In this document: positions 1 to 27,670 of the stretch, in pieces
Numbering within the stretch: position 1 is the stretch's first letter
Layout of the letters: the number at the start of each line of letters is the position of its first letter
Assembly: GCA_025041195.1 (NCBI GenBank)
Contig: JAKCFM010000003.1
Location: 62,001 to 126,000 of the forward strand
Direction of reading: 5' to 3'
Source: Halobacteriales archaeon YIM A00013
GTDB lineage: Archaea > Halobacteriota > Halobacteria > Halobacteriales > Haloarculaceae
Length of the DNA stretch: 64,000 bases
Program-made: the position numbers and the translations under genes
Notes under the pieces: model-generated
Seen by the model: only the letters and a program-made list of their open reading frames with translations
Databases searched by the model: none
Told to the model about the DNA's origin: nothing

Positions 1-961
1 CTGTCTCATCGTTTATCACCAGCTTCTCATTGTGTATTCCAAACTGCTCTTCCATCTCTGCGATCCGTTGGATCTCACCATCCCAATCGCCAACAGCATC
101 AGTATAGATATGAGAGAATGTGGGTACTGTATCAACCCCGAGTCGGTCTATTGTAGCTATAATCGCAGTGGAGTCGAGCCCACCGCTCAGCATCACTCCC
201 GGATTTGTTCTGGTTCTCAACCTGCACCTCGTTGCTCTTTCAAGCTTATTTAGGAATATCTCCTCTAGCTGCTCACAATCACCACGAAGCGTTCCCTCTA
301 GGTCCGAAGGATTCCAGTATCGATCATGTGTGATACCATCTTGTGTGATGGTTGTATACGTTCCTGGGAGGATGTACTGGATACCCTCATAGAAGGTTTC
401 TCCAACCGTCGAAATACTATCGAATACATGCTCAGCGAGTAGTCCTTCATTTATACAGACCTCCACTGAAGGGTGGCAAAGTATAGATTTGATATCGGAA
501 GCAGCAATGATTTCATTTCCAATGACTGTATAGTATAGTTGGCGAACTCCGACTCTATCACGCACTAGTATCACCTTCTCGTTATAGCTGTCGTAGAGTG
601 CAAACGCATAGACACCAACGAGATCAGTCAAAAAGGTACAGCCATCATGTTCTTTGTACAATTCCATAATGATTCTCGCATCGGACTCACTACCACTTAC
701 TGACTCCAATGTTTGGAGTATCTCTCTCCGATTATCGATTCGTCCATCGAATGTTAGAATATATCCATCGTCAACAAGAGGCTGTTGTTCACCAACCGCT
801 TCAGGAGTTGTGTAGAAGTGCTGATGGCCAAAACCGATATGTCCATCAATAACACTGTCCTGTCCGTCGTGCCCTCGATACTCCATAGTAGCTAAGAGAT
901 CCTGCAACAGATCGGAGGAAACGTACCCACCTCTATCGACTATTGCTACGAGACCGGACAT
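1..961 (-). CDS. AsnB-like asparagine synthetase / amidotransferase family protein (C-terminus outside window)
   Basis: Read on the minus strand from ATG at 961, the frame stays open to the window edge (320 codons). The N-terminal part matches a class II glutamine amidotransferase domain, with EYRGHDGQD near residue 30 and a GRIDNR segment. It is followed by the synthetase PP-loop, seen as MLSGGLDST near residue 255, which binds ATP to adenylate an aspartate-like carboxylate. The start reads MSGLVAIVDRGG: the catalytic Cys2 of true glutaminase domains is Ser here, so glutamine-dependent ammonia release may be lost. The divergent neighbour is a GT4 glycosyltransferase, and AsnB homologues of this kind are common in surface-glycan clusters. 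The substrate cannot be told from sequence. Confidence 0.85.
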   Translation of the reverse strand, partial: MSGLVAIVDRGGYVSSDLLQDLLATMEYRGHDGQDSVIDGHIGFGHQHFYTTPEAVGEQQPLVDDGYILTFDGRIDNRREILQTLESVSGSESDARIIMELYKEHDGCTFLTDLVGVYAFALYDSYNEKVILVRDRVGVRQLYYTVIGNEIIAASDIKSILCHPSVEVCINEGLLAEHVFDSISTVGETFYEGIQYILPGTYTTITQDGITHDRYWNPSDLEGTLRGDCEQLEEIFLNKLERATRCRLRTRTNPGVMLSGGLDSTAIIATIDRLGVDTVPTFSHIYTDAVGDWDGEIQRIAEMEEQFGIHNEKLVINDET

Positions 962-1061
962 ACACCTCAAAACTATATGCTTTGCATTGAAGTTTTCTAT
1001 ATATTCATACATAATTAAAGTATAGACAAAGATTATTTACAGTTGAATACATCCTCTATTC

Positions 1062-3388: not shown

Positions 3389-3470
3389 TGTACGATAGTT
3401 TCAATTCCTCCGTCATACTACTCGCTCTGTCTCAACTCGTGTCTCGGAGCGAAGAGCTATTGACGCTATC

Positions 3471-4487
3471 ATGTATGAGTGTGAGAGTCAGCCTACAATA
3501 AAGATAGCGTGTATCCTAGGCGTCATCCCGAAGGACAAATGTCTACATTCTTTATGTGATGCAACAGAGAGAGACCATCAGGGAGGTAACGACGCCTCAA
3601 CTGCGATCACAGCGAGGAACGTCGAACTCACGTACGCGGACGGCACCCGAGCGGTGCGGGGCCTCGACATCTCCACAGGTGAGTTCTTCGGATTTTTAGG
3701 GCCGAACGGGGCAGGCAAGACGACCGCTATCAAGACGTTCGTGACGCTGTTGCACCCCACTTCTGGGACGGTGACGGTCAACGGGTTCGATGTCGTTGCC
3801 AATCTCCCGCGCTGTCCGCTCGTCCATCGGCTACATGGCCCAGGGGACAAGCATCGATAGAGAACTCACCGCCCGCGAGAACATCCGCTTCGCGTGCGAG
3901 ACGTACGGCGTCCCCCGGAGCGAGCGCTCAGGGCGGATCGACGACCTATTGGCCCTCGTTGATCTCGCGGATGTCGACGACAAGCAAGCGCAGGAGTTCT
4001 CTGGTGGAATGAAAAAGCGCCTTGACGTGGCGACCGCCCTGGTGCACGAGCCACCGCTCGTCTTTCTCGACGAGCCGACGACGGGGCTTGACCCCCGGGC
4101 GCGCGATCGCCTCTGGGAGTACTTCCGGGAAATCAACCAGCAGGGGACGACGGTGTTTCTGACGACCCAGTACCGGAAGAGGCCGACGAACTCTGCGACC
4201 GCCTGGCTATGATTCAGAGTGGCAAGCTCGTCGCCACCGGTTCGCCAGACACTCTCAAAGCGTAGGTCGGTGGCGACATCCTCGAAATCACGATTGAAAA
4301 CCCGACTGCCGAGAAGCGAGCGCACGCCCGAGAGGTCGCCGGCGAGTCGGGACTGGTCGAGGAAGACACAATCGAACCTACCGACGGGGGCATTGCTATC
4401 GCTTATGAACATGCGCGCCAGGTTGACACCGATCTCCTCGTCGCGCTGCGGGATGCAGGCTTCACAGTAACAGGGTTCGACGTTCTG
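3471..4487 (+). pseudogene. ABC transporter ATP-binding protein (DrrA/CcmA type), broken
   Basis: Three frames together encode one ATPase. Frame one has GFLGPNGAGKTT (Walker A). After a one-base shift near 3812 comes EFSGGMKKRLDVA (signature) and VFLDEPTTGLDPRA (Walker B). After a second shift near 4170 comes DELCDRLAMIQSGKLVATGSPDTLKA, broken by a TAG where a Glu codon is expected, then the usual C-terminal regulatory segment. The reading ends where transposase sequence begins, near 4488, so an IS cut the tail. No permease partner is nearby. The product would have energised export of a drug or lipid. Codon use here is GC-rich compared with the AT-rich flanks. Confidence 0.85.
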
Positions 4488-17191: not shown

Positions 17192-17660
17192 AGCTACACC
17201 GTTATTCGCTAGCCTTTCGTGCACTCTCACGCGGTGTTGAGGGCGCTTTGGTCGGTACCCTCATTGGTCTATCCCAATCACAGAGATCGGAATTCTTTCA
17301 TTCAATCTCGTGTTTTCATCCGGAGCTGGTTTGATAACCGGATTTCTTCTTGGAGTTGGTTACGAGATTGCCTACTACCATCGATACACCTACGAGCTAA
17401 CTGATGATACTCTTGACATCGTTTCAGGTGTGTTCTCACGACGCCATCGAGAGACCCCCCTCCACAGAATTCAAAATATCGATGTTTCTCGCGGGGTCCT
17501 ACAGCGTCTGGTCAATATTGCAGCCGTTGATATTGAGACCGCGGGTGGCGGCGAAACTGAAGCGACTCTGCAATACGTCGGGTACAACGAGGCTAAACAC
17601 CTCCAGCGTGGCGTTCGACGCAGCAAGCCGACAGACACAACAGATACAGCAGACCCGTGA
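17188..17660 (+). pseudogene. YdbT-like bPH2 protein, frameshifted and truncated
   Basis: It begins MKLHRYSLAFRALSRGVEGALVGTLIG and shifts frame near 17270. It continues VFSSGAGLITGFLLGVGYEIAYYH, then TYELTDDTLDIVSGVFSRRHRETPL and RIQNIDVSRGVLQRLVNIAAV, a full bPH2 block. YdbT proteins normally have about 450-500 residues with three bPH2 units; here the sequence ends after one. The right end meets the truncated xseA at about 17655, a recombination joint. Confidence 0.75.
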
Positions 17661-18652
17661 CGAATCTGCTGTTCGCGAGCCTGATACGCATGATCGAGGG
17701 TTGTTTCCAGATCAGTGAGTTCGCTCCTTACATGCTGGGTGTTGTCGTGATCCAGTCGCTGTTGCAGAGTCGCTAACTGGGTAGTCACAGTCTGGGTATA
17801 GGCCGTGTCAAGCTGGTCTTGTTGTTGGGAGAGATGGTCAGTGAGGGCTTCGTAGTCTGGGACAATGTCACCGACTTGCGTTGGTGTCATGACACGGTGA
17901 TCAGCCACTTCTTCAGCGAGCGTTCGATCGGATTCATGGCCCACCCCAACAACGATCGGCGTCTGAGTGTTGTGAATCACTCGACAGAGCGCTGTTTCGT
18001 TAAAGACACGGAGGTGAGTGTCGGAACCACCACCTCGAGTGAGGACAATCACATCAATGCGTGCGTTCGTATCAAGCGCTCCGATCGCTTGCATCATCGA
18101 TTGGCCTGCCCTCTTGCCTTGGACAGACGTGTCCTGAATGACGATATCTACACCAGGATGGCGGGTATGAATGCTCGTCACTGCATCTTCACGAGCATTA
18201 CTTTCTGCACTGGTAGCGATCCCAATACATTGAGGATATTCCGGGAGCGTCTGTTTCGTAGACGCATCAAGCACACCATCCTCAACCATGATCGAGCAAT
18301 AGTTATCAGCGGTGTAAAACGAGAGCTCACCTTTGATAGCGACCTGGAGTCCGTCTTCAAGATCAACACTGAAATCGCTTCGCCGAAACTGGAGAATTAC
18401 ACAGTGGAGGTGAGTCCCATTGTGGGCAAGATCGAAGTGGACGTGATCATTTGACGAGACACCATAGTTAGTCACCTCGCCAATCACGTACTCATAGCGG
18501 TGAAGGTTGCTGCTCTCTGCGATCACTGACTCGATGTCACTGACAAGCGTGTCGACGAACGTGATCTGTTCGCTACCAAGTGTGTCTTGCAGTGATGACA
18601 GTTCCTCCCCACCCTGATTCTCTGTCGGCGACTCGACACCCATTAATATCAT
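17471..18652 (-). pseudogene. xseA: Exodeoxyribonuclease VII large subunit, C-terminally truncated
   Basis: An N-terminal OB domain (YVIGEVTNYGVSSNDHVHFDL, LQVAIKGELSFYTADNYCSI) is followed by the catalytic domain with PQCIGIATSAESNAREDAV, VIVLTRGGGSDTHLRVFNE and PIVVGVGHESDRTLAEEVADHR. Only the first part of the coiled-coil tail remains (to about 17655). The rest of the open frame is antisense to the bPH2 gene and not native. The small subunit gene expected beside it is missing. The enzyme degrades single-stranded DNA, but without tail and small subunit it is probably inactive. The real start is probably Met4. Confidence 0.8.
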
Positions 18653-18791
18653 AGGTTATAGTGGTGTGTGAAAAAATTATGGGAATTAACTGGCCAACAA
18701 GGCGAGGGAGTTGCAAATATTGACCAAGATATCGTGGACGTTCAACAAAGATCCTTCAATTACTAGTGGTCCGTTTACGTATAGCAAGTCA

Positions 18792-20339
18792 ATGAACGCT
18801 ATCGATGAACAAGCGGCCGTTCTAAACGATCCAGTGATACGACATCCATGTGGATCACGGGAAAGTAACCGTGTTGCATTCTATTGGAATCCTTTGCGGA
18901 GGCGAGGACTCTATTTTCACGACATTGACACAGGAGTCACAAAGAAAGTCACCGATCAAGGACTACGTATTCGGTCTTTCCCAGAGGATTTTCTCTGGGG
19001 ACGCAACGGACAGCGGCTCTTCTACATTCGCCCGCGCGGCCGCGGAGATTTTGACGGACCATTCGATCTCCTACAGACGAACATTGATACAGACATGGAC
19101 GCAACTACCATCTTCTCTGATACCAACTTCTTTGTCCTGGAGGATATGCACCCCGAACAGGACGAGCTCTTGTTCAGTTATCGTCGGGGAAGCAGTCAAC
19201 TCTACCGGCTTACACTCTCGTCAGGGGACCTTGAACGTGTGGGAGATCACCTCTTGGTCCGGAAAGCACACTATAGTCCTGATGGACAGTGGATCGCTAT
19301 CAATTCGGCCTATTCTGAAGACAGTCCAGATGAACAACTGCATGTAACTATCGCAACAGAGTCGGGAAAGGTCCACAAGGAGCATCTGACAAGTGACCCT
19401 GTCGAATTTATTAGTTGGCATCCCTCGACCTCACAGATTTTGGTCAAAGCTGCAGATGACCAAAGCCGATTTGGATTCTACGAAGTGACAACCGACACTC
19501 TCCAATGGATAGACACAAATAACCCTGAGTGCGAGCCTGTTGACTTCTTGCCGTCTGGAAAGGGAATACTTGCACTCTGTGATGGAACCCTTCGAATATA
19601 TCCTATTGAAAAGGAAACCATCCCATCGGACGTTTACAGTATGGATACCTCCCCAGTTGTATCAGCTACAGTTACTGATCGTTCGATCGTAGTCCATCAG
19701 CACGATGCGAACGGGAATTCGATCCTCGTTCAATCATCAGGCGACACTAGTGAGTGGACAACCGTTCTCACTTCCAAGCCAGCCCCAGGCGCAACGTATC
19801 GGACACTGATTACGGATGTCGCAAAGCAACTCGCTCGAACACCTCGTATCGAAGACGACAACCGGATGGCCGTCGGAACGGTCCATTCGGCGGAGCGTAA
19901 AGTTCTGACTCCACTCCTTGATGAGGGATTCGAGATCATTGGGACAGGTCTCGGCCGTCTTGTCCTTCGCTTTCCTCAGTCCTCTGCTGTTTCGGACTAC
20001 GTGGTGAAACTGGCCCGTTTTGGTGACACCCCACTATATTCAGGAGCTATCCAAAACCAGTGGGAAGTAACTGTCTGGGAAGAGAATATTGATGAAAATA
20101 ACATTAAACTTTTGCCAATCCAGAATTTCCAGAATTTGAGTTATCGCTGGCTGATAATGCCATATGGAGAACCGATCACTGACTATTCACTGCACGAACA
20201 ATTAATGCTAGTTGAGGAATTGCAAACAGAACTAGCTGATCTTGAATATTTAAACACGTTCGACATCCACCGGAATAATATTGTCCGCTATCAGGACACC
20301 TACTATCTTGCAGATTACGGCCGCCCGCTGATGGATTGA
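18792..20339 (+). CDS. Beta-propeller protein with C-terminal kinase-like domain (515 aa)
   Basis: Residues 1 to about 330 read as TolB or prolyl-oligopeptidase type propeller blades: GLYFHDIDTGVTKKVTD, LFSYRRGSSQLYRLTLSSGDLERV and HYSPDGQWIAINS. No serine-hydrolase domain follows. The last 150 residues instead look like a kinase-fold domain: GTGLGRLVLRFPQSSAVSDYVVKLARFG, RWLIMPYGEPI, and FDIHRNNIV with YYLADYGRP as catalytic-loop and DYG-like pieces. A TTG at 18711 could add 27 residues. It sits next to the lanthipeptide genes and may sense or modify, but a link is only inferred from position. Confidence 0.6.
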   Translation: MNAIDEQAAVLNDPVIRHPCGSRESNRVAFYWNPLRRRGLYFHDIDTGVTKKVTDQGLRIRSFPEDFLWGRNGQRLFYIRPRGRGDFDGPFDLLQTNIDTDMDATTIFSDTNFFVLEDMHPEQDELLFSYRRGSSQLYRLTLSSGDLERVGDHLLVRKAHYSPDGQWIAINSAYSEDSPDEQLHVTIATESGKVHKEHLTSDPVEFISWHPSTSQILVKAADDQSRFGFYEVTTDTLQWIDTNNPECEPVDFLPSGKGILALCDGTLRIYPIEKETIPSDVYSMDTSPVVSATVTDRSIVVHQHDANGNSILVQSSGDTSEWTTVLTSKPAPGATYRTLITDVAKQLARTPRIEDDNRMAVGTVHSAERKVLTPLLDEGFEIIGTGLGRLVLRFPQSSAVSDYVVKLARFGDTPLYSGAIQNQWEVTVWEENIDENNIKLLPIQNFQNLSYRWLIMPYGEPITDYSLHEQLMLVEELQTELADLEYLNTFDIHRNNIVRYQDTYYLADYGRPLMD

Positions 20340-20428: not shown

Positions 20429-20689
20429 TCAATGGCAGGACTTTCCACCGCATGCAGTCGACTTACACGTCGATGAAGAATCAGCTCTTCTGTCGATTTT
20501 CCCATCAATGTCGTGGTCTGGGAGATCTGCTTCAACGAACTCTTTGATCTCGGCTTCAAGTTCGTCAATATTAGCCTTATAGTCCTCTTTATTGGCGACT
20601 TCTATAATGCCGTGATTCTCGACTGCCGTTTGAAGACGGGGGTCCACTGATAAGGACTGAACAAATGTTTGCGTGTCTGGTTGCGACAT
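20429..20689 (-). CDS. lanA: Lanthipeptide precursor peptide (86 aa)
   Basis: The acidic leader of about 68 residues (SQPDTQTFVQSLSVDPRLQTA, ELEAEIKEFVEADLPDHDIDG) ends in a short core rich in Ser, Thr and Cys: SSSTCKSTACGGKSCH. Seven Ser/Thr and three Cys allow up to three (methyl)lanthionine rings after dehydration and Michael addition. The gene is divergent from lanM across 132 bp. No GG double-glycine site is visible; RRAD just before the core could be a processing point. The composition change between leader and core and the neighbouring LanM make the call strong. Activity unknown. Confidence 0.88.
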   Translation of the reverse strand: MSQPDTQTFVQSLSVDPRLQTAVENHGIIEVANKEDYKANIDELEAEIKEFVEADLPDHDIDGKIDRRADSSSTCKSTACGGKSCH

Positions 20690-20821
20690 TACAACTTATT
20701 CTATTATAACATCAATTAAAAACTTTTCTATATAATAAATATATTTAAATATTGGTTATGTAGATTCTATATAATATAATGGGGCATAAACTTAATCAGA
20801 GATAGGTTGATATATAATATA
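20690..20821. promoter_or_regulatory. Divergent promoter region of lanA and lanM with a 15-nt direct repeat
   Basis: Very AT-rich, 132 bp. TATATAATATAATGG occurs perfectly at 20768-20782 and again at 20811-20825, the second copy including the lanM start codon. The first copy opens a mini-ORF (ATG at 20779, eight codons, then TAG) ahead of lanM. TATA-like sequences occur for both directions. The repeated start region may be a duplication or a control element. Confidence 0.5.
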
Positions 20822-23800
20822 ATGGTAGATAATGGACCACTTGAGAAAGTCCAACAACGACGCATCGCCTGGCAATCACTAACCCTCTTTGAACGGATTG
20901 GAGTATATGACGGATTAGATGGCACCTCATTTGATCTGAAAAAGGGCAACACTGTTGAAATGCAGGAATTTTTCACTGAATGGGATGAGATTATTGCCGG
21001 AGGGGATCGAGAGATCCATGAGAAACGTCTTGCAGACGAAGGAATCTCTAAACGCACTTGTCAAACAAGTCTCCTCACAGAATCATGGCCAGAAAATGTT
21101 GAACTCCCCGAGTGGATCAATGAACTCAATGATCTTGTCATACACAGTTGTGAATCCGAAGCAGATATTAGATATAAAGGAGATGAGCATCCATTTATAG
21201 AAATATTAGCTCCATTTGCTAGCTATGGTTATGAACGCCTATTGTCTAAAGTGGACCTGATTCGGTTGTCAGAGAAGGCACTTAAATCTATAAAAAAGTG
21301 GTTAACAACACGCCTTATAGGACTCTCTGTCGAAGCTCTTTATGTCGAATTTAGCACATTCAGAATGCTTCAGAAGCCAAGCTTACTTGATGAAGATAAC
21401 CTCGATAGCCAAGTTGGAGCTACGGATCTCTATACCGACTTTGTGGGAAAAATGCGCACGGTTGAGGGTCTACAATCCTTTTTAGCTGAGTATCCTGTCT
21501 TAGCACGGCTTATTATAACAACAATACGTCAATGGATAGACGCCATTTCAGAGTTCCATCGGCGGCTCAACCAAGATTGGTCCGACATTCGGACAACATT
21601 CACTTGTTCTAATGAAATAACCTGTATCTCTGATCTCAATGTACTTACTGACGACCGGCATCATAATGGACGGGCAGTCATCAAAGTCGCTTTATCACAA
21701 AGTTCGAGTGTATTATATAAACCGAGAAGCATCGAGACTGAGGAAAAATATGCAGTTCTCGTTAATAATATCGCGAACGCTACTGACTTCGAGTTTAAAA
21801 CCCCACTCACTCTCCCGAAGGAAACATACGGCTGGGTTGAATGGATCCCTTATAAAGAATGTACAACAGTGGATGATGTGAAACAGTATTATAACCGTGC
21901 AGGAGCAATTCTTGGAATATCATACACTTCTTATCTTAATGACTGCCACTTTGAAAACATTGTCACACATGGGGCACATCCAATCATTGTTGATACAGAG
22001 ACAATACTGCATCCATTGACGCATAGTAGAGAGGGGCTATCACTAGTTGAAGATGAAACGGTTGATAGCGTAATGTGGACTGGACTTCTCCCACGAAGAC
22101 TTGACTCGCCAACAGGAAAAGGTGAAGTGAATATTAGTGGGTTTCAGGTCCCGATACTTCCTGAGACGGAAGATCTCAGCAGTCCGATGTGGTGGGAGAA
22201 TATGAATCAGGATACGATGGCCATAGCCAACCGAGAGACATCGTTTATCGAAATTAGCGATTCAAATAATGTGCCGAGATTAAACGGGACTTTCGAAGGG
22301 CCAGGAGCTTATGTAGATGAAATTAAGGCTGGTTTTGAGCAGATGTACACTTTCATTAAGGACAAGCCCAATATCCTTTCACCGCTTGATAACGTAGAAA
22401 CCCGAGTTTTGTTCGGACAAACGTATACTTATACATCCATCCTTGATGCGATCACTGCTCCAGCAGCACTTCGGAGTGGAAAAAATGTGACGTTGCACCT
22501 TGAACATCTTATCGCGGATCGCTCTTTTGATGGCGACTATACCGGTATTAGACAGAAAATATACCAAGCAGAACGAACTGCGATAGTTCGATTAGATGTG
22601 CCACGCTTTGTGGTGACTGATAATAAGATCTACTGGGATGGAGAGTATCTTGGTGAACCAACGGGGATTTCAGGATGGGAACGGGCCTTCAAGAAGGTGC
22701 AGTCGCTCAACGACGACGACCTGACGAAACAACAGGATTATATCCAAACTGCATGTGTGCCAGAGACCTCCCCTGCTGTAACTGGCCACACTATCCAATC
22801 CGCGAATAAGGGACCGTTTCCAGCCAACGTCGGCCCTGACTGGTCAATGGAAGACCTGGTGCAGAGGATCGGTTCACATATTAGGGGACACGCAAGCACC
22901 GATCAATCAGGGAACGTAAGTTGGATCGTTAGGGAATACAGCGACAACCGCTGTTTGGACATAAACAAATCTGACAATGGTATATATACTGGCCGTACAG
23001 GCATTGCAATCTTTCTCGCACTGCTTTCTAAATATACAAACAGTCCCGAGAGTCGAACGATAGCACTCAAAGCTCTCTCCCCACTTCGAAGCAAGCTAAA
23101 CAATGATGAATTATCTAATATCCATCTTGGAAATAGCGATGGGTTAGGATCACATATATATTCACTGAGTAAAGTCGGTCAGATCGTCGATCGGCCACAA
23201 CTCGTCAATGATGCCGAGTTGGCGGCACAGAAGATTACAGAAGAACGTATAAAAAATGAAGAAAAGTTCGATGTTATGAATGGATGTGCAGGAGGACTAC
23301 TTTCTCTTGTAGAATTGTATAACTATCGCAAGGACGACTGGCTCTTACGAAAAGCAATTATGTGTGGTGAGCACCTTCTTCAAAGCCGTTGTAAAACGAA
23401 TACACGCTATCGAGCTTGGCCAAGTAATCTTAGTACTCAACCGTTGATAGGCTTTTCTCACGGAACTTCTGGTATTGCTTATGCCCTCTATCGACTGTTT
23501 AACGCATGCGACGATGACCGATTTAGACGAGCGGGTGAGGAGGCCCTCCGATATGAACGGGCAATGTATTCGAGTAAGCACCAGAACTGGCCAGATGTAC
23601 GAGGTGAGTCTTCTACATATCTCGATGCATGGTGCTATGGCCGCTCTGGAATTGGCCTATCTCGCCTAGGAATTGCAGAGATTGCAGAGACGCAGCTTGT
23701 AAAGGAAGATATCACCAACGCACTGAAACACACAAAAAATACAGGTGGTGGTCTTCCTGATCAGCTATGCTGTGGCAACGCTGGACGAATCGAATTTCTT

Positions 23801-24025
23801 CTTCAGGCAGCCGAATACACGAATGATAGTACGTATGCGGAGACAGCAAATCGTTTATTGAGCAATGTCCTCCAGCGTACAGCGGAGAATCAGTGTTTCG
23901 CATTGCCTGGACATACGCAAACATTATACAATCCCACTTTGTTCATGGGCACCGCTGGAATCGGGTATACGTTGCTCCATTCTCAGTATCAAACAGAAAT
24001 TCCTAGTTTGCTTCTCTGGGAGTAG
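20822..24025 (+). CDS. lanM: Class II lanthipeptide synthetase LanM (1067 aa)
   Basis: The N-terminal two thirds form the LanM dehydratase, which phosphorylates and eliminates core Ser/Thr. The kinase-like active site is seen in NDCHFENIVTHG (around residue 374) and IIVDTETILHP (Asp391). The C-terminal third is a LanC-like cyclase with GFSHGTSGIAYAL (His880), WCYGRSG (Cys938) and LCCGNAGRI (Cys983, Cys984). The zinc site therefore has Cys-Cys-Cys rather than Cys-Cys-His ligands, as in the promiscuous ProcM group. I chose the ATG at 20822 over the TTG at 20807. The partners are the divergent precursor and the downstream phosphotransferase. No LanT exporter or protease gene is adjacent. Confidence 0.96.
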   Translation: MVDNGPLEKVQQRRIAWQSLTLFERIGVYDGLDGTSFDLKKGNTVEMQEFFTEWDEIIAGGDREIHEKRLADEGISKRTCQTSLLTESWPENVELPEWINELNDLVIHSCESEADIRYKGDEHPFIEILAPFASYGYERLLSKVDLIRLSEKALKSIKKWLTTRLIGLSVEALYVEFSTFRMLQKPSLLDEDNLDSQVGATDLYTDFVGKMRTVEGLQSFLAEYPVLARLIITTIRQWIDAISEFHRRLNQDWSDIRTTFTCSNEITCISDLNVLTDDRHHNGRAVIKVALSQSSSVLYKPRSIETEEKYAVLVNNIANATDFEFKTPLTLPKETYGWVEWIPYKECTTVDDVKQYYNRAGAILGISYTSYLNDCHFENIVTHGAHPIIVDTETILHPLTHSREGLSLVEDETVDSVMWTGLLPRRLDSPTGKGEVNISGFQVPILPETEDLSSPMWWENMNQDTMAIANRETSFIEISDSNNVPRLNGTFEGPGAYVDEIKAGFEQMYTFIKDKPNILSPLDNVETRVLFGQTYTYTSILDAITAPAALRSGKNVTLHLEHLIADRSFDGDYTGIRQKIYQAERTAIVRLDVPRFVVTDNKIYWDGEYLGEPTGISGWERAFKKVQSLNDDDLTKQQDYIQTACVPETSPAVTGHTIQSANKGPFPANVGPDWSMEDLVQRIGSHIRGHASTDQSGNVSWIVREYSDNRCLDINKSDNGIYTGRTGIAIFLALLSKYTNSPESRTIALKALSPLRSKLNNDELSNIHLGNSDGLGSHIYSLSKVGQIVDRPQLVNDAELAAQKITEERIKNEEKFDVMNGCAGGLLSLVELYNYRKDDWLLRKAIMCGEHLLQSRCKTNTRYRAWPSNLSTQPLIGFSHGTSGIAYALYRLFNACDDDRFRRAGEEALRYERAMYSSKHQNWPDVRGESSTYLDAWCYGRSGIGLSRLGIAEIAETQLVKEDITNALKHTKNTGGGLPDQLCCGNAGRIEFLLQAAEYTNDSTYAETANRLLSNVLQRTAENQCFALPGHTQTLYNPTLFMGTAGIGYTLLHSQYQTEIPSLLLWE

Positions 24026-24081
24026 TATATCATTAGGATCCATCCCTATTATCTTGGCTGATCTGCAATATAGGTAAGAAG

Positions 24082-25125
24082 ATGACCACAAACAATCGTA
24101 TTTCAACTCTAATCTCCACCCTCTTCCCAGAAACATCCTCCGTCTCATATGAAGTAGCAGATGGGTCGACATTAGGATACACGTACTTCATTGAGAAAGA
24201 TGGGGAACAGACGCAATACGTGTTGAAACTTGCTAAGACAGATGCTGAGAGCAACTTACGGTTCTACCGCACCGACCACACTGGTCAGGCCGCTGTAGAC
24301 GCAATGGTGGTCGAGGCAACCCTTCTCGACTGTATCGCTCAGCAGACAGCAGTGCCAGTCCCCCGGGTACTTCAGGTCAAATCATCCCCAGAAGAAGGGA
24401 TCCCTCCATACCTACTTCTTGAACGGATCCCTGGGACTCCATTGAATATCAAGACAAATATGACATCTGATGCCTGGCAAAGATGTCTTACCGAAATTGG
24501 ACGATATCTCGCAGAGCTCGGCAATGCATTTCAGTTTGATGGGTTCGGATCACTCTGCGACCGTGATGGTACAATTGTTGTGGCGGACGACCAAGGAACT
24601 TGGCCATGCTGGATGGATGCGCAGTACAATAAATACCTTGCGCGGTTAGGATCAACTCCACTCGCAGATCTAGTACCAGAGATCAATTCATTGTATCAAG
24701 ACCGACGTGATCACCTTCCATATCGCCCCGATCCGGTATTGATTCATGACGATTTACACTTAGCGAATATATTGGTTGCCCCAGCGGCCAATGACGGGAC
24801 AATAACAGCGGTATTGGACTGGGAAGAGGCAATAGCCGCTCCACGAGAGTTCCAAGCTGCACGAATGGAATACTCATTGTTCGTAGCTGGAGACACCACC
24901 ACAAAAGCAGGATTACAAGCGAAAGAGTGGTTCCAGAACAGCTACTGGGACTATTCATATGGGCAGCAAAGCCAAGAATATGATATATGCCGAACTCTCT
25001 ATCATCTTCTAATCTGGCTTCGGATGGCCGGTAATTTACAATATAAAGATGGTGTTAATAAGGAGACGAAGATGACAATTGAACAGGCGCTACGTGAAGA
25101 GCTCAATGATATACTTACGACATGA
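24082..25125 (+). CDS. APH-family phosphotransferase (347 aa)
   Basis: Aminoglycoside/choline kinase fold. YVLKLAKTDAES carries the ATP Lys and VVEATLLDCIAQ a helix C Glu. PPYLLLERIPGTPL is the hinge. HDDLHLANIL (His222, Asp224, Asn229) is the catalytic loop, and AVLDWEEA the metal-binding Asp. It starts 57 bp after lanM on the same strand and is probably co-transcribed. It could modify the lanthipeptide, give self-protection, or be a bystander. No known resistance substrate can be deduced. Confidence 0.85.
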   Translation: MTTNNRISTLISTLFPETSSVSYEVADGSTLGYTYFIEKDGEQTQYVLKLAKTDAESNLRFYRTDHTGQAAVDAMVVEATLLDCIAQQTAVPVPRVLQVKSSPEEGIPPYLLLERIPGTPLNIKTNMTSDAWQRCLTEIGRYLAELGNAFQFDGFGSLCDRDGTIVVADDQGTWPCWMDAQYNKYLARLGSTPLADLVPEINSLYQDRRDHLPYRPDPVLIHDDLHLANILVAPAANDGTITAVLDWEEAIAAPREFQAARMEYSLFVAGDTTTKAGLQAKEWFQNSYWDYSYGQQSQEYDICRTLYHLLIWLRMAGNLQYKDGVNKETKMTIEQALREELNDILTT

Positions 25126-25702: not shown

Positions 25703-27670
25703 TCACTTTTGACTCACGACGACACGTGCAGGTCGAAGGACCTGCTGATTCATTAGATAGCCAGGACACTCAACAGAGATAACCGTACGTGCAGGAACGT
25801 CACTCTCGGCAGTTGCAACTACCTGATGTCGATGCGGATCAACTGTATCGCCAAGAGCGGGAGAGAATACCGTCACGTTCATCACTTCGAACACATCATC
25901 GAGTTGTCTCGCTATAGCTTCAATCCCGCTGCGAACGTTGCTGTTGATATCGTGTGTGAGTGCTTGTGCAATTGAGTCACGAACAGGAATAAGCTGTTTG
26001 ATATATTTTTTCCTCGCTTCAACCTGCTCGTAGGAGGATGAGGAATCAACTGCACGGGTGACGGATTCCCCTTGTCGTTCGGGAGGGGGAGTCCGACTGC
26101 GCTCTTTCTCTCCAACCAACTGACTATGCGTCGACACCGATGAAACAGTTCTAGATGCCAGTGGTACGAGCCGTCGAACACGCGCAATCACTTCTGGAGC
26201 AACCTGACGAGTGGATTCGTGGTCGTATACGAATTCTTCCCGAGAAATATGCTCGCTTACCGTTGCACTATCTGCATGGAGATCGACTTTGAATTGCCCG
26301 TACGGGTCAAGAGAAACCGTTATCTCAATTTCTTGTTCTCCTACGTTCGCAGGAGGGAGATCTGTTAGAGTTAGTTCTCCACAGTACTCGTTTTCGGCTG
26401 CTATGCTGTTCTCTCCCTGGAATATCGGTATACGTAACGATGTTTGATTATCTATGCGAGTAACGAATGTCTTTGTTTCTTTGATTGGGATAGTAGTATT
26501 TCTTTCAACAATTGGTTCGAATCGGCCACAATACGTTTCAGTACCTATTGAGCGTGTGATATGAGAGAGAAGGATACTATCGTCGATGTCTCCATGTATT
26601 ATTCCACTTTTCACAGTTGCCCCCAGTGCAACGATTTCTGTCCCATTGGCCGCTGGCGTAACAGGCCGTCCCACCGTCTGTGAAATGGTTCTCTGGACAT
26701 CTGGTAATTGGGAGCCCCCACCGATGAGCACAATGTCGTCAATCGTAGCGGGATCAAAGCCACAGCTTGCAAGGACATTCGCAATCGGTTCGACAAGGCG
26801 AGCAGCAAGATCCTGCGTGATGCGTTCAAATGTCGAACTGGACAATGTCGTCTGCAACCCCAAAGATCCTGTCGATGTTGTCAATAGTGATGGAAGCGTG
26901 ATCTCCGTCTCGGATGTCTCTGATAGTTCTTTCTTCGCCGTCTCGGCCGTGTGGTAGAGTCGATCAAGCGAGTGGGGATTGTTGCGAACGCTATTAGCAG
27001 ACGAAGTACCGTGCTGTTCTGCGAATTCAGCGAGAAGCCATTCAACGATCTCCCAGGTCCAATCGTCACCACCGAGAGCTAGATCACCGTCTGTGGCGAG
27101 TGGCTGGTATACACCCCCACCGATTCGCATGAGTGCGACATCGAATGTAGCAGCACCAAGATCGCAGATAAGCACAAGACGATCTGCATCATTGCTGATT
27201 GACCAGCCAAATCCGAGCCCCGCAAAACACGCATCTCCACCGACGAGAGCACATTCAATGTCGGCGAGTTCGCAGGCTTGACGGATTCCAGACCGATATC
27301 GATTTGATGCCAAAGAAGGTACAGCCATAACGGCTCGATCAACCGACTCCCCTCCTGTGTGTTGCGTGAGTTTGCGAAGCAACACCGCTAGTAACGATTC
27401 GGGACTCTGGTCAGAATCAACGAGAGCAACAGTAATAGGCTCACCAAGATGTGGCTTAAGCATTCGAACAGAGCGATCTGGATGGTTGCGTGCGAACTGC
27501 TTTATATCCCTGCCTGCGGTCAGTTCTCCATCAGCAGAAAGAGCCACAATAGACGGAATCGTTGTCATATCGTTCCGGGTTGTGACTATTTCGGGACCGT
27601 CTTTTCCAATTACGCCAACAGTGCTATTCATCGCCCCAAGGTCAATCCCAAGATCCACTCTATTAGACAT
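25703..27670 (-). CDS. Hsp70-family protein with fused GrpE-like C-terminal domain (655 aa)
   Basis: The N-terminal 380 residues are an Hsp70 ATPase: GIDLGAMNSTVGV (phosphate 1), VLICDLGAATFDVALM (phosphate 2) and DDIVLIGGGSQLPDVQ (adenosine). A short substrate-binding beta domain follows (TFVTRIDNQTSLRIPIFQGE), then a linker rich in Ser, Glu and Arg. Residues 550-655 read like the end of GrpE: LIPVRDSIAQAL, GIEAIARQLDDVFEVMNV, GDTVDPHRHQVVAT, and PGYLMNQQVLRPARVVVS. A chaperone and its own nucleotide exchange factor would thus be one chain. Phosphate motifs deviate from canonical DnaK, so it is a specialised Hsp70. No dnaJ nearby. Confidence 0.85.
   Translation of the reverse strand: MSNRVDLGIDLGAMNSTVGVIGKDGPEIVTTRNDMTTIPSIVALSADGELTAGRDIKQFARNHPDRSVRMLKPHLGEPITVALVDSDQSPESLLAVLLRKLTQHTGGESVDRAVMAVPSLASNRYRSGIRQACELADIECALVGGDACFAGLGFGWSISNDADRLVLICDLGAATFDVALMRIGGGVYQPLATDGDLALGGDDWTWEIVEWLLAEFAEQHGTSSANSVRNNPHSLDRLYHTAETAKKELSETSETEITLPSLLTTSTGSLGLQTTLSSSTFERITQDLAARLVEPIANVLASCGFDPATIDDIVLIGGGSQLPDVQRTISQTVGRPVTPAANGTEIVALGATVKSGIIHGDIDDSILLSHITRSIGTETYCGRFEPIVERNTTIPIKETKTFVTRIDNQTSLRIPIFQGENSIAAENEYCGELTLTDLPPANVGEQEIEITVSLDPYGQFKVDLHADSATVSEHISREEFVYDHESTRQVAPEVIARVRRLVPLASRTVSSVSTHSQLVGEKERSRTPPPERQGESVTRAVDSSSSYEQVEARKKYIKQLIPVRDSIAQALTHDINSNVRSGIEAIARQLDDVFEVMNVTVFSPALGDTVDPHRHQVVATAESDVPARTVISVECPGYLMNQQVLRPARVVVSQK

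Follow-up and report, generated by a model that had tools for sequence, protein, structure and literature searches.

A conserved four-gene cluster with a Nif11-like precursor probably encodes a class II lanthipeptide in a haloarchaeon

We analysed a 64,000-nucleotide stretch of the genome of Halobacteriales archaeon YIM A00013 (contig JAKCFM010000003.1, positions 62,001 to 126,000; hereafter the window), in which a cluster of four genes probably specifies an archaeal class II lanthipeptide: those of a precursor peptide (lanA), a bifunctional class II synthetase (lanM), an APH-family kinase and a beta-propeller protein. At the level of sequence, this assignment is carried by the gene set, its conservation in a second genome, the intact catalytic residues of LanM, a remote resemblance of the leader to Nif11 and the basal position of LanM among its archaeal relatives. 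Class II lanthipeptides are already established in archaea (PMC10105419, PMC12144867), and an earlier note on this DNA had remarked that some archaeal lanthipeptides are known. What is new here is the remotely Nif11-like leader, a core spacing common to cyanobacterial precursors and the position of LanM, the leader and the basal LanM being the unusual parts of the cluster.

Gene content and conservation of the cluster

The earlier note had proposed a class II lanthipeptide cluster consisting of a precursor gene, a full lanM and an APH-type kinase gene. The proposal and all three genes are borne out, since LanM is complete with the residues critical in CylM and the precursor is conserved along with it, but a fourth conserved gene had been overlooked. 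The genes lanA (20429–20689, minus strand, stop codon included; 86 amino acids) and lanM (20822–24025, plus strand; 1067 amino acids) are divergent, with their starts 132 bp apart as described. The region between them (20690–20821) has a G+C content of 18%, compared with 45% for the cluster and 50% for the window, and presumably contains the lanA and lanM promoters. The APH-family kinase gene (24082–25125, plus strand; 347 amino acids; PF01636, E 7e-21) follows lanM. The overlooked gene (18711–20339, plus strand) encodes an S9-type beta-propeller protein with a kinase-like domain, which has 542 amino acids when counted from a TTG codon, the ATG at 18792 being an alternative start. The source genome is 3.73 Mb in 3 contigs, and the window lies on a contig of 256 kb.

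Scanning public genomes with a LanM alignment as the query, we recovered one close relative of the locus (L045). It belongs to Halobacteriales archaeon YIM A00010, and no further genome was found to carry this type of LanM; a single-sequence LanM scan of genome contigs had given no match. The identity between the two loci is 69% for LanA (full-length, E 3e-45), 61% for LanM, 59% for the APH kinase and 67% for the propeller protein (543 amino acids in YIM A00010), and the LanA and APH counterparts both lie beside the homologous lanM. The gene order is propeller (+), LanA (−), LanM (+), APH (+) in the window and LanA (+), propeller (−), LanM (+), APH (−) in YIM A00010, as if the propeller–LanA block and the APH gene had been inverted separately. 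The retention of the same gene content despite rearrangement argues for one functional unit. All four genes are under purifying selection, with ratios of non-synonymous to synonymous substitution (dN/dS) of 0.18 for LanA, 0.13 for LanM, 0.20 for APH and 0.13 for the propeller protein, values that are rough because dS exceeds 1. The genome of the window falls within a genus group of seven genomes, in two of which the precursor is present; it was not found in G183, another member of the group.

The precursor peptide and its synthetase

The precursor ends in ...RADSSSTCKSTACGGKSCH, and its core region, with the leader/core boundary placed provisionally, covers amino acids 69–86 (ADSSSTCKSTACGGKSCH; 20432–20485, minus strand). 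The three core Cys are invariant between the window and YIM A00010 precursors, which agree at S71, S72, S73, T74, C75, C80, G81, G82, S84, C85 and H86; at position 77, the window precursor has Ser and that of YIM A00010 has Thr. Both cores match the pattern C-x-[ST]-x-x-C-G-G-x-x-C, as do 5 of 200,000 core shuffles, a figure that is indicative only, because the pattern was picked after the similarity had been noticed. The Gly-Gly between the last two Cys had been called unusual, a view that does not hold: cyanobacterial Nif11-leader precursors, including those of Nostoc and related organisms (C-termini such as ADSAPKLCHTEGCGGGHC), carry the same spacing, so that this Gly-Gly is common to the bacterial relatives.

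The leader was compared with the Nif11 family by several routes. PF07862 (Nif11) matches amino acids 1–44 of the window precursor (20558–20689, minus strand) over its full length with E 0.16 and 12.7 bits, and is the top match of the YIM A00010 precursor with E 0.011 and 16.4 bits, both scores being below the curated cut-off of 23.8 bits. TIGR03798 matched neither the precursor nor any other protein of its genome. With hhalign, a profile built from Nif11 precursors in bacterial, mostly cyanobacterial, LanM neighbourhoods aligned with the archaeal precursor pair at a probability of 84% (E 7e-6, score 31.5), and none of 200 column shuffles that preserved composition reached this score (maximum 17.9). 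When 556 Cys-containing small open reading frames (ORFs) beside archaeal LanMs were ranked by Nif11 similarity, the YIM A00010 precursor came first and the window precursor second, with 54–74 aligned columns compared with at most 27 for the next-ranked ORFs. By these sequence measures, the leader is Nif11-like but falls outside the curated family, and only these two of the 556 ORFs look Nif11-like. Neither precursor has a Gly-Gly cleavage site in amino acids 1–70, nor the leader motif known from archaea, K-x-(Y/F)-(D/E)-x-x-(F/Y), a relaxed form of which occurs beside 16 of 45 archaeal LanM loci.

A two-row profile of the precursors gave one match in the genome of the window, with no second LanA. 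In 391 Halobacteria genomes, the precursor matches had E > 0.001 and fell within long frames; we took them to be spurious. No LanA was detected in plasmid and viral collections, and a PDB sequence search with LanA returned nothing useful. In the searchable literature, we found no account of archaeal lanthipeptides with a leader of the Nif11 type, although the LanM lists of archaeal surveys may already include this cluster or its relative, unstudied.

LanM scores 737 bits against TIGR03897 (cut-off 304) and contains both a dehydratase (kinase/lyase) domain (PF13575, 21491–22615, E 6e-87) and a cyclase domain (PF05147, 22973–24016, E 3e-65), in agreement with its earlier description as a full LanM. 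The ORF caller places its start at TTG 20807, but ATG 20822 is preferable: counted from there, LanM has 1067 amino acids, the same length as the 61% identical relative from its own ATG. In the alignment, LanM keeps D278, H280, K300, D374, H376, N379, D391, R528 and T534, matching the residues needed for phosphorylation and elimination as defined by mutation of CylM (PMC4550811). In both the window and YIM A00010 LanMs, Gly replaces an almost invariant Arg that adjoins the elimination residues (R532G). The zinc ligands C938, C983 and C984 are of the CCG type, as in most of the archaeal LanMs scanned. In a published survey, Nif11-leader lanthipeptides were paired only with CCG-type LanMs, and such LanMs were noted in Halorussus (PMC10027976).

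Apart from the YIM A00010 protein, the best LanM match in the 391 Halobacteria genomes was 34% identical. A tree of 113 LanMs placed the 35 archaeal sequences in one group with respect to the bacterial LanMs sampled (Shimodaira–Hasegawa-like approximate likelihood ratio test, SH-aLRT, 99), and the window and YIM A00010 pair was sister to all other archaeal LanMs (SH-aLRT 97). A 45-row tree under a mixture model gave the same topology, with support of 100 and 97. The stem of the pair is long (0.89–0.97), and some long-branch risk therefore stays.

These data bear on a simpler explanation, in which the cluster is an ordinary archaeal lanthipeptide cluster, its Nif11 resemblance due to convergence or composition, its cyanobacterial link accidental and its basal LanM a long-branch effect. 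The sub-cut-off Nif11 matches, the absence of the Gly-Gly end typical of Nif11 leaders, the long stem and the choice of the core pattern after the fact all fit such an explanation. However, composition-preserving shuffles did not approach the observed hhalign score (≤17.9 versus 31.5), the two precursors occupied the first two of 556 ranks, leader and core both pointed to the same bacterial family, and the mixture-model tree kept the position of LanM. We consequently consider this explanation unlikely, though it is the strongest of the alternatives weighed here.

The chemistry, leader removal, export, accessory roles and biological function that we infer for the cluster are as follows. LanM would recognize the Nif11-like leader, phosphorylate and dehydrate some of the seven core Ser/Thr, and add the three Cys to dehydro-residues, giving up to three (methyl)lanthionine rings. 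Proteases encoded at other sites of the genome would then cleave off the leader, and export would depend on a transporter outside the cluster. The APH kinase and the propeller/kinase-like protein would be accessory, most likely acting on the peptide by phosphorylation as tailoring or self-protection, or else serving as immunity factors.

Some other LanM loci were observed during these scans. The genome of the window has a second lanM (L040:7214–11794), with a divergent gene for an M29-family metalloprotease (PF02073, E 8e-56) and an APH remnant downstream, where no precursor was identified. In YIM A00010, another LanM is divided between two ORFs (L198:5141–9375; dehydratase of 645 and cyclase of 394 amino acids) followed by an APH kinase, and is either a split gene or a pseudogene. 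Neither the WC-x-G nor the CCG/CHG zinc motif was found in two further archaeal LanMs (L144:8073–11396 and L146:8073–11339, the proteins of L021 and L023), each of which has an upstream Thr-rich candidate precursor (TITTTTTVTVTTTTSAPFSCSC).

Accessory proteins, leader removal and export

Structural comparison of the 542-amino-acid protein identified a beta-propeller of the S9-peptidase type (Z 28.5, root-mean-square deviation 2.9, 310 aligned residues). Its C-terminal 180 residues contain G-x-G, VVKLAR and ADYG motifs and gave weak structural matches, mostly to protein kinases (best Foldseek E 0.016; Z 6.4, root-mean-square deviation 4.8, 134 aligned residues). Modelled alone, this kinase-like domain had no confident fold (mean predicted local distance difference test 64.5). 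The three motifs are retained, and the catalytic Asp is not retained in a stand-alone paralogue. This paralogue lies near an asparagine synthase and an S9 peptidase on the chromosome of the source genome (L178:5793–10444) and in G183 (L179:5548–10202), and a 41-codon ORF (L178:6544) is situated between the genes of the former locus. In G338, of the same genus, a truncated propeller/kinase remnant (L177:8852–9565; 60% identical) has no LanM or LanA nearby.

Relatives of the APH kinase within the genus adjoin the second LanM, on the chromosome of the source genome (as a remnant), the split LanM of YIM A00010 (L198) and two asparagine synthase genes (L199, L201), and other copies, such as L200 and L202, have no neighbour typical of ribosomally synthesized and post-translationally modified peptides (RiPPs). 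Outside the genus, none of 28 loci of APH relatives has a LanM or asparagine synthase within 1.5 kb, so that the link between APH and RiPP enzymes holds only in this genus. A PDB sequence search with the APH protein gave nothing useful. Asparagine-synthase-like enzymes close lasso peptides in bacteria, and the loci with APH and asparagine synthase may therefore be other peptide clusters. The window itself carries at 1–1012 (minus strand) a protein resembling asparagine synthase and glutamine amidotransferase, cut by the window edge and 34% identical to the asparagine synthases of L199 and L201, which may mark a further RiPP-type locus on this contig. Judging from gene neighbourhood, the cluster kinases may act on peptides.

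Phosphorylation of RiPP precursors by APH-like kinases has precedent (PMC9486802), which raises the question of whether the APH protein takes part in dehydration in the manner of LanK in class V, phosphorylating core Ser/Thr for elimination by LanM or leaving stable phosphoserines. The precedent of the APH-like CaoK, which phosphorylates Ser/Thr of a lanthipeptide precursor (PMC9486802), the R532G change in LanM and the conservation of APH with the cluster are in its favour. We regard this role as improbable, given that LanM retains the full set of phosphorylation and elimination residues and that APH relatives also occur beside asparagine synthase genes without LanM.

As the earlier note had stated, no LanT, LanFEG or peptidase gene lies near the cluster. 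Many archaeal LanM loci have a two-gene ATP-binding cassette (ABC) exporter nearby, but here only ABC-ATPase fragments (3399–4209), 16.6 kb from the cluster, were found and no intact ABC exporter is near. No C39 peptidase domain was detected in either carrier genome. A 645-amino-acid ABC exporter near the YIM A00010 cluster was considered as a dedicated exporter and excluded, as its 80% identical orthologue lies elsewhere on the chromosome of the source genome. Generic proteases outside the clusters have been credited with at least part of the maturation of archaeal lanthipeptides (PMC12144867), and this route is also the likeliest for leader removal here.

With only ABC fragments and no exporter near, the cluster might be a relic that no longer makes or exports a product. 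Other RiPP genes of the genus are indeed decaying (the APH remnant at the second LanM, the split LanM of YIM A00010 and the truncated propeller/kinase of G338), and the precursor occurs in only 2 of 7 genus genomes. All four genes in the window are nevertheless intact, with dN/dS of 0.13–0.20, and in a published archaeal case traces of product were obtained in Haloferax volcanii when only LanA and LanM were present (PMC12144867), which makes a relic quite improbable.

Taken as a lanthipeptide cluster with a Nif11-like precursor, the locus has several points weighing against it: the PF07862 scores under the cut-off and the lack of a TIGR03798 match, the R532G change, the absence of an exporter or peptidase nearby, the APH copies in the genus without RiPP-type neighbours, and the derivation of the accessory roles of the APH and propeller proteins from gene neighbourhood and nothing else.

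Among the neighbouring genes, a 655-amino-acid apparent DnaK–GrpE fusion, with an Hsp70 domain followed by GrpE (PF00012, E 6e-92; PF01025, E 1e-21), is encoded beside the APH gene (25703–27670, minus strand). The segment 16670–18652 carries a bPH_2 protein, and a bPH_2 protein also adjoins the homologous cluster of YIM A00010. A second bPH-like ORF in the window (17310–17660) looks frameshifted and is overlapped on the opposite strand by a gene for the exonuclease VII large subunit (17471–18652).

Relation to known lanthipeptides and possible function

The cluster resembles those of the haloarchaeal class II lanthipeptides (archalans, medlans, larlans, sallans and ciblans; PMC10105419, PMC12144867) in its haloarchaeal host, its CCG-type LanM of the same clade, its small core rich in Ser, Thr and Cys and the absence of a C39 transporter. 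It differs from them in its 86-amino-acid Nif11-like precursor, whereas their leaders are short and contain the motif K-x-(Y/F)-(D/E)-x-x-(F/Y), in a LanM that is at most 34% identical and sister to all others sampled, and in having APH and propeller/kinase genes but no two-gene ABC exporter nearby. With the cyanobacterial Nif11-leader class II lanthipeptides (Nostoc, nostolysamides; PMC7268733, PMC13060382, PMC10027976), it shares the remote leader similarity, the CCG-type LanM and the core spacing found in several Nostoc precursors; here, however, the host is archaeal, LanM belongs to the archaeal clade (about 31% identical), and there is one precursor, with no Gly-Gly site and no C39 peptidase-transporter. 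Prochlorosins and ProcM likewise combine a CCG-type LanM with a leader of the Nif11-family type, but have many precursors, compared with a single precursor, lacking the Gly-Gly site, in this genome. The class V lanthipeptides cacaoidin and lexapeptide also have an APH-like kinase in their clusters; unlike these, the present cluster has a full LanM, and no HopA1-type lyase was found among the neighbours scanned.

Antagonism toward other haloarchaea is the likeliest function of the product, anti-haloarchaeal activity being established for archaeal class II lanthipeptides (PMC10105419, PMC12144867). The genus includes hyphae- and spore-forming archaea, and YIM A00010 is a described strain of this kind (PMC10067837), circumstantial support for the idea that the peptide acts as a morphogen in development, as an archaeal equivalent of the SapB/SapT peptides of Streptomyces. 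Since the precursor is present in only 2 of the 7 genus genomes and was not found in G183, a general role in differentiation is unlikely, and we consider the morphogen idea very doubtful.

The repeated occurrence of APH kinases hints at a hitherto unstudied accessory component of the peptide clusters of the genus. More broadly, the cluster bears on the origin of archaeal lanthipeptides and on the way in which the leader-cleaving transporter of bacteria was lost. The combination of a basal archaeal LanM, a Nif11-like precursor and a cyanobacterial type of core spacing suggests an origin in a bacterial system of the Nif11 type, from which the Gly-Gly site and the C39 peptidase were lost later. 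The cluster may thus be a remaining bridge between lanthipeptide chemistry as found in bacteria and in archaea.

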